In this document: in pieces, positions 1 to 14,631 of the stretch
How the letters are laid out: each line of letters begins with the position of its first letter
Position numbering within the stretch: the stretch's first letter is position 1
Virus record (IMG/VR): IMGVR_UViG_3300020477_000155
Coordinates: 1 to 21,534 of that record
DNA length: 21,534 nt
DNA from: a virus
Direction: 5' to 3' (one strand)
Program-made: the position numbers and the translations under genes
The notes under the pieces: generated by a model
The model's database searches: none
Told to the model about the DNA's origin: nothing
Seen by the model: only the letters and a program-made list of their open reading frames with translations

Positions 1-106
1 CTGTATCGCCCTCATCTGGCTTGAACCAGGGTGAGTTTGCGTCCTTGTTTCCTTCGCCGCGAAGGGATGCGAGCTTTCGTCGCATCAGTTCCATATCAAT
101 TCCCAT
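1..106 (-). CDS. Probable gp32-like single-stranded DNA-binding protein, N-terminus only
   Basis: Only the first 35 codons are in the window; the gene runs off the left edge. The ATG at 106-104 has an AGGAG Shine-Dalgarno site at 119-115, eight bases upstream. The peptide begins MGIDMELMRRKLASLRGEG and continues with an SPWFKPDEGD stretch. A short helix of the type 'M..KL..L', then a Trp-x-x-Pro-(acidic)-Gly segment leading into the OB-fold, is my recollection of the N-terminus of gp32-type ssDNA-binding proteins in T4-related phages. Such proteins coat single-stranded DNA during replication and recombination. Too little is present to see the OB-fold or zinc site, so the call rests on this short match and on the adjacent polymerase-like gene. 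Confidence 0.6.
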   Translation of the reverse strand, partial: MGIDMELMRRKLASLRGEGNKDANSPWFKPDEGDT

Positions 107-183: not shown

Positions 184-1023
184 TCAAGTGTATTCTTGTA
201 TTGCGTTAGTGTGGGCAACGCAGAGCCCAAAATCTTTGTGTTCTGTTTCATAGATTGCATATGAAATGCGTCGAAATGCGTTTCGAGGTTTTTCCTTAAG
301 CATATCGACGATCTTCTTGTGCAATCCTCCTTCATTTTCTAATCTGTCCTTATTGATACATAGATAATAACACACATCTCGATCCATGTCAAGCTCATAT
401 AGCCAATTTTCTTCAAGATTATCAGGATTGATAATTCCCAAGCTTCGAATTCGACTAATGTCCAAAGGCTTTGATATCATGCCAATTTCAGGTTCTGCGT
501 GATTAAAATAATTTATATAATGAACTGTGGAAAAAATAGATTCATTAATCTTGTCATAATAAGTTTTTATGGGGACATTGCCTATCGTTTTTTCCACTAA
601 TATATTAGATATAGGAGTAAAAGAGGCAAGCAGCCCAGAGCGCGCATATTGCTGCAGTACACTAAATACCACTTTGTCGATTAGTCGAGGAATGCCCGTT
701 AAAAGCTCGCCATCCGGCTGCACGTAGAATACATCGACGTCCTTCTCGCGGAGCTGTTCTAAAATGCCTAACGCATAATTAGAACTGAACGAAGAGCCCA
801 CTATAAAGAGTTGTATGTGATCGTCAACTTCTTTGAAGAATTTTTTAACATCTGGAATATTGTTCTCGTATTCTTCGGGGGTGTTAAAATTTTTTAATTT
901 GAATTTATATTTAGAATTGCGCGCGACATCGGAGTTAAGCATAAAAACATTATAATTTTTGGTTTGTTTAAATTTTTCGGCAATTTTTGAAGCTGCGGTG
1001 CCCAAGCCCACGATGGAAATCAT
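184..1023 (-). CDS. Putative divergent tubulin/FtsZ-like protein
   Basis: 279 aa. The ATG at 1023 overlaps the polymerase stop codon as ATGA, so translation is probably coupled. The N-terminus has a hydrophobic beta strand and glycine loop (MISIVGLGTAASKI, G6 and G8), then a second strand ending in an Asn-Ser-Asp, as in the FtsZ/tubulin T1 loop and following strand. Residues 72-90 (LFIVGSSFSSNYALGILEQ) lie where the tubulin signature GGGTGSG loop and its helix would be, but most of the glycines are missing. Next comes a strand (VDVFYVQP, 96-103). Residues 152-165 (IKTYYDKINESIFS) resemble the tubulin PTY-x-x-x-N-x-x-(I/V) segment that contacts the nucleotide base. The C-terminal half has no clear motif. 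Phage tubulins such as PhuZ centre phage DNA in the cell, but the unusual phosphate loop means GTPase activity or filament formation cannot be assumed. A Rossmann-type protein of another family is the alternative. Confidence 0.45.
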   Translation of the reverse strand: MISIVGLGTAASKIAEKFKQTKNYNVFMLNSDVARNSKYKFKLKNFNTPEEYENNIPDVKKFFKEVDDHIQLFIVGSSFSSNYALGILEQLREKDVDVFYVQPDGELLTGIPRLIDKVVFSVLQQYARSGLLASFTPISNILVEKTIGNVPIKTYYDKINESIFSTVHYINYFNHAEPEIGMISKPLDISRIRSLGIINPDNLEENWLYELDMDRDVCYYLCINKDRLENEGGLHKKIVDMLKEKPRNAFRRISYAIYETEHKDFGLCVAHTNAIQEYT

Positions 1024-2195
1024 AGCTTAATCTCATTTAAATTATAGTAATCTTTTCCTGCGCGCAAATTGGCCAAATACCCATCTTCAAAAACATCTCG
1101 TATTCCGATCACGATATCACGATCCGCGTCCGCATAATCAATCACTACCTCATCGTGTACAATGTGCGAAACAAAGGACTTCTTGCCCTCTAGCATCTTG
1201 TCGATTAAGACAGCTTTCTCCAAAACTCGGTCTGCTGTGGTACTTTGAATCAAGTAGTTCAATGCTTTTCTTTGCTCCACCTTAATTTTACGCCCATACG
1301 GAGTATGAATATAACCTTCTTTGTAGTATTTGTCAAGCACTTTTTCGCGATCATAATATTCTGAATCAATATCTTTGGATTCTGGGTTGTAAAGCCACGC
1401 AAAAAAGTAAAGCTTTGCTTCTTCCCGAGTCATTTCCATATCTTTAATGATGTTCTGAACGTTCCATTCGTGAATATCATATTCGGGCTGATCTTGCCCA
1501 CATAGCTCCAGTAGCGTGCGGATTTCGGCGCCGTTATAATCAAGGCTCATCATCAAGTCATTATGAGGCTTGATTATACGGCGTAAGTCTTTCTTTAGCG
1601 TAAGCATGGGAAAAGACTCTGGATGTGTTGTAAGGCGCCCTGTAACTGTACCAAACATATTATAATCAATACGCGTAAAGTTTTTCATTAGCTCTTGAAT
1701 TTTTTGACGATTCATTGAGGAGTAGAATAAGTGCTTGCAGTCCTCAGTGTTTAAGTTTAACTTCTGATATCTAATTTTGTGTAATAGTTTATACACACTA
1801 TCTAAATGATCATAATTCTCGGGCTCTTCGTATGTCTCAAAAACGTGCTCTGTGATTTTATTTTTAATCTCGCAAAACTGTACAAGGAAATCGTGAGGTA
1901 TCAAATCAAACACACAATGATCCGCCATATTAACTTTAGCGATCTTGAAAGACTTCAAATAAGCCTTCATTTTCCTTTGGGTAGCTTGAAGCTCATTACA
2001 CAAATCTTCTGGGCAACAATCGGCAATATTGCGCCCTCTAGCGCGTATCCAAGCATACTCCACCGATGGGTCTGTGATAGATGCGCTATAGCGCCATGTC
2101 TTTGTTAGATTATCTGGAAAATCCTCAAACGACAGCTTGCCGTCTGCGTAAATTCCGATGCATTCTGACTTATCGTCAAGTGCCTGGAATATCAA
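1020..2195 (-). CDS. Minimal family A DNA polymerase (palm and fingers, no exonuclease)
   Basis: 391 aa; Pol I family members are usually 550-930 aa. All the catalytic landmarks of family A appear in order. T185-G-R187 is the template/primer-binding TGR. D219-YNGAE-I-R226 is motif A, matching the consensus DYSQIELR at the metal-binding Asp, the steric-gate Glu (E224) and the Arg. D240-I-H follows. Motif B has the O-helix spacing R257-x3-K261-x3-F265-x3-Y269. TPYGRKIKV (298-306) and the Gln-containing helix ALNYLIQSTTAD (Q317) follow, then motif C H347-D-E349. Residues 1-180 match no 3'-5' exonuclease I recognise; part may be a reduced thumb. The start is TTG (2195-2193), overlapping the upstream TGA, with a strong GGAGG at 2206-2202 six bases upstream. 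It presumably extends DNA. Whether it is the phage's replicative enzyme, working with a separate exonuclease, or an auxiliary enzyme is open. Confidence 0.88.
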   Translation of the reverse strand: MIFQALDDKSECIGIYADGKLSFEDFPDNLTKTWRYSASITDPSVEYAWIRARGRNIADCCPEDLCNELQATQRKMKAYLKSFKIAKVNMADHCVFDLIPHDFLVQFCEIKNKITEHVFETYEEPENYDHLDSVYKLLHKIRYQKLNLNTEDCKHLFYSSMNRQKIQELMKNFTRIDYNMFGTVTGRLTTHPESFPMLTLKKDLRRIIKPHNDLMMSLDYNGAEIRTLLELCGQDQPEYDIHEWNVQNIIKDMEMTREEAKLYFFAWLYNPESKDIDSEYYDREKVLDKYYKEGYIHTPYGRKIKVEQRKALNYLIQSTTADRVLEKAVLIDKMLEGKKSFVSHIVHDEVVIDYADADRDIVIGIRDVFEDGYLANLRAGKDYYNLNEIKL

Positions 2196-3520
2196 TAACC
2201 ACCTCCGGTGGGCCCAAGCAGCGAAAGGGATGCGGGGGCGGTTTCAAGGCCGGCCTCTTTAAGTTCTTGTTCCATTAGTCTTTCCTTTCTTTTGTTAAGA
2301 TGAGTCGCGCTTCCTGTATAATCGTAAGGCTTGTTTAATATTCTTTCGAAGCGATACAGCGCGTCATATACCCCATATGCTCTATAATAGTTAATGAGGC
2401 GCTTCTCCAAACGTTCTCTTTCAACGAGGGTGAACTTTGATTCTTCCTCGCTGAATCTTATTCTAACATATAACTTAAAAAAATACAAGTCTCCATATTC
2501 TTTTTCCAAGTCGCTTACGCTTGTGTAGGTTCGGGGGTGCACCACTCTGCGTCCTGAAACATTCTCGCCCTGCAGGTGAGGGCTTCGGGAAGCCACCGAT
2601 GCGGGCTCCTTTGAACAAGCCACAGGCTTGGAGATAAATGGGCGCCTGATTTTAGTGTAAAGCCTCAACAGTTGGGCCTTAAACTGATCATAATACAAAA
2701 CATGCACTTTGCGCAATCTCTGTCCTAAAAAGCTATGAGAGTTGCCCATATAATTGGCGCCCATCATGTATTGCATTGCCTTCGAGCGGATATCTGCCAC
2801 AAGCCGCCATGGTACATTCGCGTCCACAATAAATCCATTTTGATTGGCAGAGTTAACATAGATTTCCCAATTAGGACTTTCCATGAATTGCTGAAATTTG
2901 GCAACATCATCCGAACAATTTAGATCGGCTATTTCCACCACCAAACCCGACACATTCATGGGACATATCTTGCTTTTAATATAAGCCGTCTGTGTAAAGG
3001 GAAATCGTTTTCCAATTCCATGCATATAGTCTATAATAATATCCGCCATATCATCAAACTTTAATACTTCATGGCTGGGATTAGACACGGCGCTGGCCAT
3101 AGATTCTGATAAGACTTTGAAATATTTTTTATATTCTGTGTGGGGATCCAAAAATCCCTTATAAGCTTTTAAGTTGGTCAAAAACGGATCCGAAGTGCTG
3201 ATTAGGCCCTTCTGGGCTCTCACCTTGAAGCCGCGCGCCATATGGTCAAACGCATCTGCCACAAAGTTTAAGGCCCTTATGGAATCATTGGTGCTATTCG
3301 TAATGGGCTTGATGTAGTCGGGATTACGCAATACGACAGGAACATAAAACATATTAACACGGCCATATAAATACATCTCACCCTCATTGGCAAAGTTAAC
3401 TACATTCTGGTATTCTTTACTAGCCACATAAGAAAGATATATGTCTCTTTTTAAAAACAGCTTAAGGGTCTTGATGTTGTTGCTTGATGCTAAATATTCT
3501 TTACTTATTGTAAATGTCAT
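2192..3520 (-). CDS. Conserved-looking phage protein of unknown function (442 aa)
   Basis: 442 aa, ATG at 3520 with an AAGGAAA ribosome binding site, 15 bases after the stop of the giant baseplate protein. It ends in a 4-base overlap with the polymerase gene. I do not recognise a characterised domain. Residues 1-290 look globular and mixed alpha/beta with many aromatics. The stretch around residues 175-250 (FPFTQTAYIKSK, then GFIVDANVPWRLVADIR) has the feel of a conserved core, because 'NxPWRLVA' reads like a conserved motif; this is impression only. Residues 293-332 form a Ser/Pro/Arg-rich linker of different composition. A charged helical C-terminal domain follows (332-425), ending in a Gly-rich tail. 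Its position between baseplate genes and a polymerase allows either a virion or a replication role. Confidence 0.75.
   Translation of the reverse strand: MTFTISKEYLASSNNIKTLKLFLKRDIYLSYVASKEYQNVVNFANEGEMYLYGRVNMFYVPVVLRNPDYIKPITNSTNDSIRALNFVADAFDHMARGFKVRAQKGLISTSDPFLTNLKAYKGFLDPHTEYKKYFKVLSESMASAVSNPSHEVLKFDDMADIIIDYMHGIGKRFPFTQTAYIKSKICPMNVSGLVVEIADLNCSDDVAKFQQFMESPNWEIYVNSANQNGFIVDANVPWRLVADIRSKAMQYMMGANYMGNSHSFLGQRLRKVHVLYYDQFKAQLLRLYTKIRRPFISKPVACSKEPASVASRSPHLQGENVSGRRVVHPRTYTSVSDLEKEYGDLYFFKLYVRIRFSEEESKFTLVERERLEKRLINYYRAYGVYDALYRFERILNKPYDYTGSATHLNKRKERLMEQELKEAGLETAPASLSLLGPTGGGY
2199..2206 (-). promoter_or_regulatory. Strong Shine-Dalgarno site that decides the TTG start of the polymerase
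   Basis: GGAGGTGG on the minus strand lies six bases before the TTG at 2195. The same bases encode the Gly-rich tail (PTGGGY) of the upstream 442-aa protein. No ATG or GTG start close by has comparable spacing, which supports the TTG start and translational coupling. Confidence 0.7.
2581..2630. repeat. Two short palindromes inside the linker of the 442-aa gene
   Basis: GGCTTCGGGAAGCC (2581-2594) can fold as a 6-bp stem with a two-base loop. CAAGCC-ACA-GGCTTG (2616-2630) can fold as a 6-bp stem with a three-base loop. Both share the GGCTT/AAGCC core. They lie in the segment encoding the Ser/Pro/Arg-rich linker, which is locally more GC-rich than its surroundings. They may mark an inserted palindromic element or an RNA structure; no known element is recognised. 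Confidence 0.4.
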
Positions 3521-8853: not shown

Positions 8854-9192
8854 TTAAACTCCTAAAATATTAAGGGCCGCTTCTAGTTCTACAGGAATAT
8901 ATAACACAGCCCCCTGGTGAATATCCGCTTCGGTGGGATAACCATTATACCACGCAATTACCCACCAATAATCAGCGTCTCCATAATAGGTATGAGCCAG
9001 TTGATAAAAGCGATCGCCATAGCGCCAAATATGAGTGTTAGTTACAATAGATGCGCGAGCTGCAGCCCCCGGGTTTTTCAATATGGGGGTTACGTATTGT
9101 GTAATAGCTTTTTTAGAATACCGATTTTTTCTTAAAAATGAGTAAAACTCATTTGCATTAACTATTATCCTATCTCTTCTATATCGTGACAC
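8854..9192 (-). CDS. Small LysM-domain baseplate protein (gp53/tail-X type)
   Basis: 112 aa, start GTG at 9192 with GGGAG nine bases upstream. A basic N-terminal segment (1-45) precedes a LysM-like domain at about 52-103 with the typical pattern: THIWRYGDRFYQLAHTYYGD, then YWWVIAWYNG, and finally GAVLYIPV. In contractile tails such small LysM proteins are structural baseplate components (the T4 gp53 C-terminal region, the P2 gpX family) and are not necessarily peptidoglycan binders. It lies between the tube-initiator-like gene and the giant hub-like protein, consistent with a role at the hub/wedge junction. Confidence 0.75.
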   Translation of the reverse strand: MSRYRRDRIIVNANEFYSFLRKNRYSKKAITQYVTPILKNPGAAARASIVTNTHIWRYGDRFYQLAHTYYGDADYWWVIAWYNGYPTEADIHQGAVLYIPVELEAALNILGV

Positions 9193-12914: not shown

Positions 12915-13164
12915 TTAGCCTCCCTTAAAATTAGGGGGCGGCGCCGGTTGATTAAACTGATTTAAAGTTTGTGCCTGGGAACCTCCTTTACTTGCGCTTT
13001 CGTAAGATTCTCGCTCTTTGGCTAATTGTTGAGCTAGCCTTTCCAAAAACCAGCGACGGAGGCCCAGGGGCAGGTTATAGGCCTCGCTAAAAGACCAGCC
13101 ACCGTGATATTTTAAAAGGAAAAAAGCTTCATACACGCTTTGCATGTACTCATCGGTCAGGCCA
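12915..13164 (-). CDS. Tail assembly chaperone extension in the +1 frame, probably made by frameshifting
   Basis: The open frame extends upstream to 13226 (103 aa from a TTG), but the first ~20 codons overlap the Cys-x-x-Cys coding part of the gp26-like gene and look like out-of-frame translation. Natural-looking protein begins exactly at the T7 run: FFGLTDEYMQSVYEAFFLLK, then YNLPLGLRRWFLERL, then a charged and Pro/Gly-rich tail. The TTG (13226) and ATG (13205) have no good Shine-Dalgarno site. The in-frame ATG at 13145 has only a weak GAG. I therefore infer that this segment of about 82 codons is expressed mainly as an extension of the preceding gene, like the G/GT chaperone pairs that precede tape measure genes in many phages. 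A separately initiated short protein in the T4 gp51 position is the alternative. Confidence 0.65.
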
Positions 13165-14004
13165 AAAAAAGTCCGCGGTAAGCGGGACCTCCAATTCGGT
13201 CTCATGGCCGCACTCGGTGCACTCAAAATCTTGAGTTAGGTCTATATTAGGAGCCACTGATTTATACGCCAAGCGCAAGTGTCGTGAGTCCGACGATGGG
13301 ATATTTTGAACTAGATAATTTAAAGCATCGCTAGAGTCGTCTCCATTTACCGCAGTCACAATATTCAATATTTGACGGGTAATGGTGCGTTCGTGTATCT
13401 TTTGTTTTTTATCTAAATTGATGCCAGCTAGCAGGTTTCTTTCATCCGCTCCATTAAGAAGCCGAAATGTAGCACTTACTCCGCTTTTAGGCAGTTTAGT
13501 GGTAAAAGTGCCATCTCCGTTATGGGTTATGTTTTCATTAGGCGGATCACCTTCAAAGATACCGGCAGTATTCAAATCAAACGCATATTTTTGAGTAGCA
13601 GTGCATCGTGGGCACATAATGCTAGTGTTATATTCGTTTCCATATCCCGATACGCGAATAGCAACGATAAGAGCATTTCTGTCTCCAATGAGCAGGTGAT
13701 CTGCATTGATACTCGGCTCTACAATTAAATTTTGCAACACTCTGTCCAAGGCCACATTCTTCTTTAAAAGCGTCTTGGACGTTAAGATATCCTCTTCTTT
13801 AGCTGTCATCTGGCGCACTTCAATGCTGCTCTGTCCCCGGAGCGGGTGGCCTTCAGGATAGAACTTGCCTTGAGATGGCAACTCTACAAATTCAGTGGGG
13901 ACCACAAAGGAAAAGCCTCCTCCTCCCGTATCAGTGGTCAGGGGCGCAGGAGGGCCCTCATCGAGGGCAGCAGTGCCTCCCGTTCGATCTTTATTTCTTG
14001 ACAA
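13150..14004 (-). CDS. gp26-like baseplate/tail assembly protein with a four-Cys putative zinc site
   Basis: 284 aa, TTG start at 14004 with GAGAGG six bases upstream; no ATG fits better. The N-terminus (1-30) is Gly/Pro/Thr-rich and probably disordered. Residues 35-90 carry the hallmark VPTEFVELPSQGKFYPEGHP followed by an E-x-R-x-M-T-AKEEDIL helix, which I recognise from the T4 gp26 baseplate family. C131-x-x-C134 and C262-x-x-C265 form two CxxC pairs, a likely zinc ribbon. The protein ends ...ADFFWPDR. T4 gp26 is needed for hub assembly, and the position between tube and tape measure genes is that of tail assembly chaperones. The last five codons run through the T7 frameshift candidate. Confidence 0.78.
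   Translation of the reverse strand: MSRNKDRTGGTAALDEGPPAPLTTDTGGGGFSFVVPTEFVELPSQGKFYPEGHPLRGQSSIEVRQMTAKEEDILTSKTLLKKNVALDRVLQNLIVEPSINADHLLIGDRNALIVAIRVSGYGNEYNTSIMCPRCTATQKYAFDLNTAGIFEGDPPNENITHNGDGTFTTKLPKSGVSATFRLLNGADERNLLAGINLDKKQKIHERTITRQILNIVTAVNGDDSSDALNYLVQNIPSSDSRHLRLAYKSVAPNIDLTQDFECTECGHETELEVPLTADFFWPDR
13162..13172 (-). other. Candidate programmed frameshift site (T7 run)
   Basis: On the minus strand the gp26-like frame reads GAC TTT TTT TGG at its codons 278-281, five codons before the stop at 13152-13150. The seven T occupy 13170-13164. Slipping +1 gives ...DFF-GLTDEY and slipping -2 gives ...DFFF-GLTDEY; both enter the downstream frame. A fused product would be about 362 aa. 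I saw no obvious stimulatory pseudoknot by eye. A one-base assembly error in the homopolymer would give the same picture. Confidence 0.6.
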
Positions 14005-14040: not shown

Positions 14041-14631
14041 TTAGACGCTAAAGAACTCCGATTCACCACTGCCAACCACAGCGGATGAGCCACCTGCAAA
14101 CGTCTGGACACGAGCCCAATCGTACTTCAGTGTAACGCTCATTTCCGTAAGATCATCTGTTCCATAAGCCAAGTCACCATATTTGACCTCGGTGAGGAAA
14201 GAATTCCACAATGTCCATTTTTCCAGCTCATTGCCGTCTGAATCAATTTGTGTAATGATCACAGTTCCCAATGCTCCTGCCGCCTTAGCCTTGGACATGG
14301 TTGTTAGCGAACTAGCGTCAGTAGGCGGCGTGTAGCCCGATTGTACCACAATATCCGAGAGAGTTGCAGCCATATCTGGCTCAACAGGATCAACCAACGT
14401 TACAGTAACATCTTGCCACGTAACCGATCCGGGATAATAAAAAGTATGATTTAAATACTTATGTTCTGCGCTCGCAATTGCGAAAGAAGGCTTCGTAACG
14501 GTCTTTGCATACCAAAGAGCGGCGCCTCCTTGAGTAGCTTGAATTCCCTGAAATTCAACAGTAAATCTAAACTGTCTTTTAGGGTCTTTTAAAGTTGTGT
14601 CTTCTCCAAAGTTGGTTGACCAGAATGGCAT
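14041..14631 (-). CDS. Tail tube protein (T4 gp19 family)
   Basis: 196 aa, close to the size of the T4 tube protein (163 aa). The ATG at 14631 has an AGGAG site eight bases upstream. Typical features are an early KRQFRFTVEF strand, ALWYAKTVTKPSFAI (the K-x-V-x-x-P-S loop seen in tube subunits), YYPGSVTWQDVTVTLVDP (the W-x-D-x-x-V-T-x-x-D-P signature) and a C-terminal TEMSVTLKYDWARV strand. It would polymerise as hexameric rings inside the sheath and form the DNA channel. It lies 58 bases after the sheath gene, the universal sheath-tube order. Confidence 0.93.
   Translation of the reverse strand: MPFWSTNFGEDTTLKDPKRQFRFTVEFQGIQATQGGAALWYAKTVTKPSFAIASAEHKYLNHTFYYPGSVTWQDVTVTLVDPVEPDMAATLSDIVVQSGYTPPTDASSLTTMSKAKAAGALGTVIITQIDSDGNELEKWTLWNSFLTEVKYGDLAYGTDDLTEMSVTLKYDWARVQTFAGGSSAVVGSGESEFFSV

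Follow-up and report, generated by a model that had tools for sequence, protein, structure and literature searches.

An exonuclease-less family A DNA polymerase core with a probable accessory, Pol I-like role in far-T4 phages

The stretch of DNA analysed here, called the window, is an entire IMG/VR record, a fragment of 21,534 nucleotides (21.5 kb), and the remaining genome was therefore examined in relatives. The window encodes a minimal DNA polymerase of family A, 391 amino acids long and devoid of exonuclease, that we call the PolA core. With a probability of roughly 0.62, we read this core as an accessory enzyme of far-T4 myoviruses, here large marine phages, that acts like the polymerase domain of Pol I: the core and a stand-alone FEN would be a Pol I split over two genes, with a DnaE enzyme as replicase. 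The accessory role is well supported, and is proposed because the core and the FEN stay the same from lineage to lineage and the remaining polymerase does not; the exact job would be to fill gaps, either in primer removal or in recombination-dependent replication.

Results

The polymerase gene and its family

The open reading frame occupies exactly positions 1020..2195, as originally predicted, on the minus strand, a point on which the prediction was silent; the plus strand is riddled with stop codons there. Its start, a TTG at 2195, overlaps the stop codon that ends the gene before it, and in the same alignment column the family starts with ATG in 19 of 37 sequences, with TTG in 13 and with GTG in 5. 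The protein matches the Pfam family DNA_pol_A (PF00476, E=2.6e-11) and phrog_17 (2e-18). One scan of IMG/VR returned homologues in at least 91 further contigs, and a profile scan matched at least 572 stretches; at least 143 contigs carry the core, and 143 loci are used for the neighbour counts below. All 80 loci taken from the first scan encode full-length proteins, with frames of 389 to 415 amino acids and 44-93% identity to the core of the window. In comparison with the four relatives that allow it to be computed, dN/dS comes to 0.02-0.03, synonymous sites being near saturation: the core is under purifying selection. Since Pfam and phrog_17 both match, homologues are full-length and dN/dS is low, the reading frame is not a product of chance. 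A cellular or prophage origin was considered and rejected: one scan of genome contigs found no cellular member of the family, the sole hit being a weak, partial match of 29% in Segniliparus.

Motifs and predicted fold

All the active-site motifs of family A are where the original prediction had placed them, on the minus strand: the TGR motif (T185-G186-R187, 1635..1643), motif A or DYNGAE, with the metal ligand D219 and the steric-gate position E224 (1524..1541), motif B or O helix, R257-x3-K261-x3-F265-x3-Y269 (1389..1427), the Q helix, N313-YLI-Q317-STTAD (1230..1259), and motif C, H347-D348-E349 (1149..1157). Their alignment holds in homologues, a check that had been proposed at the outset. 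Across 39 sequences of the marine family the invariant residues are T185, G186, R187, D219, E224, R257, K261, F265, Y269, Q317, H347 and D348, a set that includes the Arg, Lys, Phe and Tyr of the O helix and the Gln of the Q helix; across 16 divergent cores they are R187, D219, K261, F265, Y269, Q317, S318 and D348. The two metal-binding aspartates of family A, D219 in motif A and D348 in motif C, are thus invariant in both sets, and two-metal chemistry should be kept across the wider family, to judge from these residues. R257 is not retained in the distant cores, though invariant in the marine family. In the cores of immuto, Mel-JY01 and LR756508, E224 is replaced by His and the HDE of motif C by YDA, and in the clade of the G002 type motif C reads HDS; the steric gate is presumably altered in the cores of cultured relatives.

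An AlphaFold2 model computed from the alignment of 39 sequences (pLDDT 92.2, pTM 0.90) has the right-hand palm and fingers of family A. Comparison with Taq-type polymerases, also proposed at the outset, agrees: the best Foldseek matches, at E about 6e-11 and a TM near 0.6 of the query, are the large fragment of Bacillus (Bst) Pol I and KlenTaq, the latter with E 5.9e-11, probability 1.00 and a TM of 0.62 of the query. Aligned by profile, the core matches E. coli Pol I over residues 180-386 only, that is, palm and fingers. The fingers are shortened, because Y269 and Q317 are 48 residues apart, whereas 83 lie between the equivalent Y766 and Q849 of E. coli, a difference of 35. The TGR motif is preceded by 184 residues, a small beta-containing N-terminus followed by helices from 63 to 172, and in the model this helical segment is probably the thumb.

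The claim that this core of 391 amino acids lacks a recognisable 3'-5' exonuclease stands: the Pol I alignment starts at residue 180, leaving out the exonuclease domain, active or inactive, of bacterial Pol I, and PF01612, the PolA-type 3'-5' exonuclease, is absent from the core, the window and 8 large related records, nine records in total. Nor does the chain, at 391 amino acids, include the N-terminal FEN of bacterial Pol I.

The replication cassette

The window stops before FEN and DnaE, and both are therefore read from relatives. Two of these, G001 (195,690 bp) and G002 (184,889 bp), are large and strongly syntenic; G001 probably represents a nearly whole, permuted genome, because its two ends map to adjacent sites in G002, at 33.7 and 37.6 kb. 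In order of transcription, the tail and baseplate genes are followed by a conserved gene of no known family, the PolA core, a gene of 279-288 amino acids, gp32 (PF08804), RecA (PF00154), UvdE (in G001), a stand-alone FEN (PF02739), a DnaB helicase (PF03796), a class II-type ribonucleotide reductase, an amidase and DnaE. The PolA core is the first recognisable gene of a replication cassette that starts where the tail genes stop. To place it inside a late gene cluster, as the original prediction did, is misleading, because it opens the cassette of gp32, RecA, FEN, helicase, reductase and DnaE; the window simply breaks off within gp32.

All the features of the window given here lie on the minus strand. 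Its tail genes include those of a tail tube protein (14041..14631, phrog_4542, 3.8e-25), a baseplate hub protein (13150..14004, phrog_150, 1.7e-20) and, at the end of the tail module, a baseplate wedge subunit (8854..9192, phrog_7145, 1.4e-10). The gene directly upstream of the core (2192..3520, 442 amino acids) has no Pfam or PHROG match; it is kept, with homologues in 125 loci, yet diverges fast. At the other end, the window cuts a gp32-like single-strand binding protein (2..106): its fragment, MELMRRKLASLRGEGNKDANSPWFKPDEGDT, matches the N-terminus of the G001 gp32 (PF08804). In a close relative, G008, whose PolA core is 88% identical to that of the window, gp32 is complete and the whole cassette is present.

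Assemblies of this phage group, the window included, repeatedly break near the 5' end of gp32. Many records end 0.8-1.4 kb downstream of the PolA core, and the gp32 of G001 holds an assembly gap of 10 N; candidate causes are a sequence common to co-occurring strains, or a structure.

All 21 contigs that run on for 6.6 kb or more downstream of the core have the stand-alone FEN, and those that end within 3.9 kb all lack it. DnaE (PF07733), some 10-13 kb downstream of the core, is present in all 13 relatives that run on for 19.8 kb or more, and every shorter one lacks it. In both cases, the genes are missing from short contigs because the contigs end first. The DnaE of the relatives is about 1150 amino acids long; Pfam recognises its PHP, alpha, finger and HHH domains, and its 13 copies conserve the PHP motifs and the polymerase motifs YPDIDxD and KFD, the latter two being the PDxDxD and third Asp of Pol III alpha. 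Some bacterial DnaE enzymes proofread through PHP, and by analogy the DnaE of this lineage may edit itself in that way. A DnaQ-like PF00929 was found in none of 10 records, and PolB neither in the window nor in 8 large related records; the related records are classed as linear, so that the absence of PolB, exonuclease and DnaQ carries weight only where a record is near-complete. The search for a separate exonuclease or PolB in the rest of the genome, conducted in relatives, thus found the 5'-3' FEN but neither PF01612, PF00929 nor PolB, and the notion of an exonuclease-less core in a T4-like genome was right. In this lineage the genome is most likely copied by a Pol III alpha of the DnaE type, which carries a PHP proofreading domain of its own.

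G001 also encodes a Cpn60 chaperonin, the UV endonuclease UvdE and a PIN-PhoH protein (L096:14548-16125, L097:17825-18817, L093:13270-14649), which are useful for host prediction.

The same cassette with other polymerases

The gp23 capsid protein of G001 is closest to those of immuto and Mel-JY01 (47% in matched pieces), followed by RM378 (34%). By PHROGs and gp23, G001 has the gp23, gp20 portal, gp21 protease, sheath and tube of a far-T4 phage, nearer RM378 than T4; the assignment of the window, which itself contains tail genes only, rests on this relative.

The order core, gp32, RecA, FEN, helicase recurs in Flavobacterium phage immuto, which grows on Flavobacterium sp. LMO8, in Microcystis phage Mel-JY01 and in LR756508. 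In immuto, gp001, annotated 'DNA polymerase family A' (441 amino acids), precedes two small genes, a ssDNA-binding protein, a recombinase, a 5'-3' exonuclease, a DnaB helicase and a ribonucleotide reductase; elsewhere this genome has a second PolA of 777 amino acids with an exonuclease domain, and neither DnaE nor PolB was found in it. In Mel-JY01, WWT39333.1 (408 amino acids) matches the family profile at 1.8e-12, with gp32, RecA, FEN and helicase after it; Pfam gives no match to this core, which the family profile alone detects. PolB and a clamp loader are encoded elsewhere in that genome. The labels of this phage deserve a remark: the real PolA core is called 'hypothetical', and the 'DNA polymerase I' is WWT39339.1 (PP395634, 55792-56832; L199:40793-41833), which has the FEN domain only (PF02739/PF01367). 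In LR756508 (484 kb) the core is likewise followed by gp32, RecA, FEN and helicase, and PolB frames and a DnaE-like gene lie at other sites of the genome. There, PolB comes in pieces in two separate frames and the DnaE-like frame has just 575 amino acids (260623-266900 and 47415-48068); LR756508 may hold split versions of both.

Two other genomes depart from this order. LR756511 (595 kb) has DnaE and a core-like frame of 428 amino acids, around which 19 kb hold no match to gp32, RecA or FEN. RM378 has a split PolB and a FEN, and no PolA core was found in it; as a precedent for a split PolA it was rejected, its split polymerase being of family B.

A tree of polymerase domains unites the cores, with a support of 0.98 when LR756511 is included and 0.89 when it is left out, and sets them off from T7, E. 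coli and the long PolA of immuto; it is only indicative, because the cores are about 20% identical. The original guess of a distinct lineage was right.

A neighbour with a predicted tubulin fold

The gene downstream of the core (184..1023, minus strand, 279 amino acids) is translationally coupled to it in the window, with an overlap of 4 bases at the end of the polymerase frame, and adjoins it in 143 of 143 loci. Its AlphaFold model (pLDDT 92.9) resembles TubZ and FtsZ in Foldseek, with E down to 5.9e-12 and TM up to 0.73, and thus has a predicted tubulin fold; sequence searches for tubulin or FtsZ gave no match. The place of the canonical GTP signature GGGTG[ST]G reads GSSxSSN, with an invariant G76, and the site corresponding to the T7 loop has no NxDxxD/E. 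Also invariant are G6 and G8 of the T1 loop and N160, which, placed by eye in the model, would correspond to the guanine-contacting Asn of FtsZ. Its profile has no match in the examined stretches of immuto, Mel-JY01, RM378, LR756508 and LR756511. If confirmed, this neighbour would widen phage tubulins to another group.

Discussion

Across four divergent lineages the main polymerase varies, being DnaE, PolB, a long PolA, or PolB with a DnaE-like gene, and the small PolA core with gp32, RecA, FEN and helicase is fixed. This suggests that these five genes are a portable core of the far-T4 fork.

Pol I fills gaps after primer removal and unites polymerase and FEN activities; where it is missing, stand-alone FENs substitute (PMC12926913). 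In these phages, the two activities appear as two genes, and the core appears without any exonuclease domain, unlike the bacterial PolA groups, which carry active or inactive 3'-5' exonuclease domains (PMC12926913). The following division of labour is proposed: a DnaE-type Pol III alpha would copy the genome; the stand-alone FEN would supply what the N-terminal domain of Pol I does, taking off RNA primers or flaps; the core would fill the resulting gap on a template coated with gp32, and perhaps act also at D-loops made by RecA; a ligase would then seal. Catalytic residues invariant at about 20% identity, the Pol I fold, the fixed cassette and the presence of a second polymerase argue for a split Pol I, from which we infer that the core is catalytically active, fills gaps and cooperates with FEN. 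The short fingers, together with the drift to His at E224 and to YDA in relatives, could mean altered chemistry. Several facts count against a split Pol I. Phages such as T4 manage without a Pol I core, their replicase filling the gaps; gp32 and RecA stand between the core and FEN; and the adjoining gp32 and RecA fit a recombination or repair polymerase equally well.

That last reading, in which the core would extend RecA D-loops on gp32-coated DNA or bypass lesions instead of taking part in Okazaki maturation, we regard as unlikely on the whole. In each of the four lineages gp32 and RecA are neighbours of the core, as is UvdE in G001; the core has no proofreading domain, and its fingers are reduced; exonuclease-inactive bacterial PolA2 is tied to mutagenic repair (PMC12926913). 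However, FEN accompanies the core no less constantly than RecA does, and the marine family keeps without exception the steric-gate E224 and the O-helix F265 that ordinary Pol I has. This reading and a split Pol I are compatible, not exclusive.

It is also conceivable, though quite improbable, that the PolA core and the tubulin-fold protein are one machine, a filament-associated or filament-derived factor localising or regulating the accessory polymerase at phage forks; this would be a replication organiser of a kind so far undescribed, in abundant marine phages that do not belong to the nucleus-forming group. We give still less credit to a catalytically dead relic with a structural or regulatory role, for example as partner of the tubulin-fold protein: the pairing in 143 of 143 loci, the short fingers and the motif C drift in relatives would fit, but the pair of metal aspartates, the Lys, Phe and Tyr of the O helix and the Gln of the Q helix are invariant at about 20% identity, dN/dS is about 0.03, and the profile of the partner finds nothing in immuto, Mel-JY01 and LR756508. 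Least probable of all is the replicase of the lineage, or half of it, which the original prediction had entertained in view of a stand-alone core: family A enzymes do replicate T7-like phages and the large relatives have no PolB, but the guess is unsupported because a full-length DnaE with an intact active site lies 10-13 kb downstream in 13 of 13 long-enough relatives and because the cultured far-T4 phages have their core in addition to another polymerase, PolB in Mel-JY01 and a proofreading PolA of 777 amino acids in immuto; moreover, there is no separate PolA-type exonuclease, and all genomes that are long enough have DnaE, PolB or a long PolA beside the core.

Two other early guesses fared better than the replicase. 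Half of a split polymerase is supported, though in a different sense: the separate part is the 5'-3' FEN domain of Pol I and not a proofreading exonuclease. A special-purpose enzyme is supported.

The accessory, Pol I-like core opens the way to test whether phages require a Pol I function of their own. Surveys of virioplankton that use PolA as a marker gene may mistake accessory enzymes for replicases, and a natural, exonuclease-less PolA of 390 amino acids with short fingers is a small enzyme scaffold.

Comparison with known systems

Among jumbo phages, PMC7824862 distinguishes four paradigms of replication by their replicase, one of them a Pol III alpha with PHP; in PMC9123017, PF07733 occurs in 51.9% of the marine cluster PGC_A, which includes a Rhodothermus phage of the RM378 type. 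The passages concerned make no mention of an exonuclease-less PolA beside Pol III alpha or PF07733.

The phage core shares with bacterial Pol I (E. coli, Taq) the palm and fingers motifs, the best PDB fold matches and a FEN activity encoded nearby; it differs in lacking the 3'-5' exonuclease domain, in having FEN as its own gene, and in fingers shorter by 35 residues. Bacterial PolA2/APEX likewise belongs to family A, has no functional proofreading and assists a DnaE replicase (PMC12926913), but it retains an inactivated exonuclease domain and a clamp-binding motif, and is confined to Actinobacteria. T7 gp5 and the long PolA of immuto have the same family A palm and fingers; unlike the core, they have a 3'-5' exonuclease domain, are the sole or main replicase, and fall outside the core group in the tree. 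Rhodothermus phage RM378 is far-T4 by its capsid (34% in gp23) and has polymerase activities on separate genes with a separate FEN, but its split enzyme is of family B (exonuclease p024, polymerase p092) and no PolA core accompanies it.

The nearest known counterparts are in cultured far-T4 phages. The core of Mel-JY01, WWT39333.1, is a profile match in the corresponding position of the cassette; it differs in being invisible to Pfam and in belonging to a phage with PolB and a clamp loader. GenBank already labels one homologue as 'DNA polymerase family A', gp001 of immuto (YP_010114413.1, 441 amino acids), on which a limited search of the literature, no proof of absence, found no paper. This protein has both family and cassette in common with the phage core, from which it differs in being only about 20% identical, in having His for E224 and YDA for HDE, and in the 777-amino-acid PolA that its phage adds.
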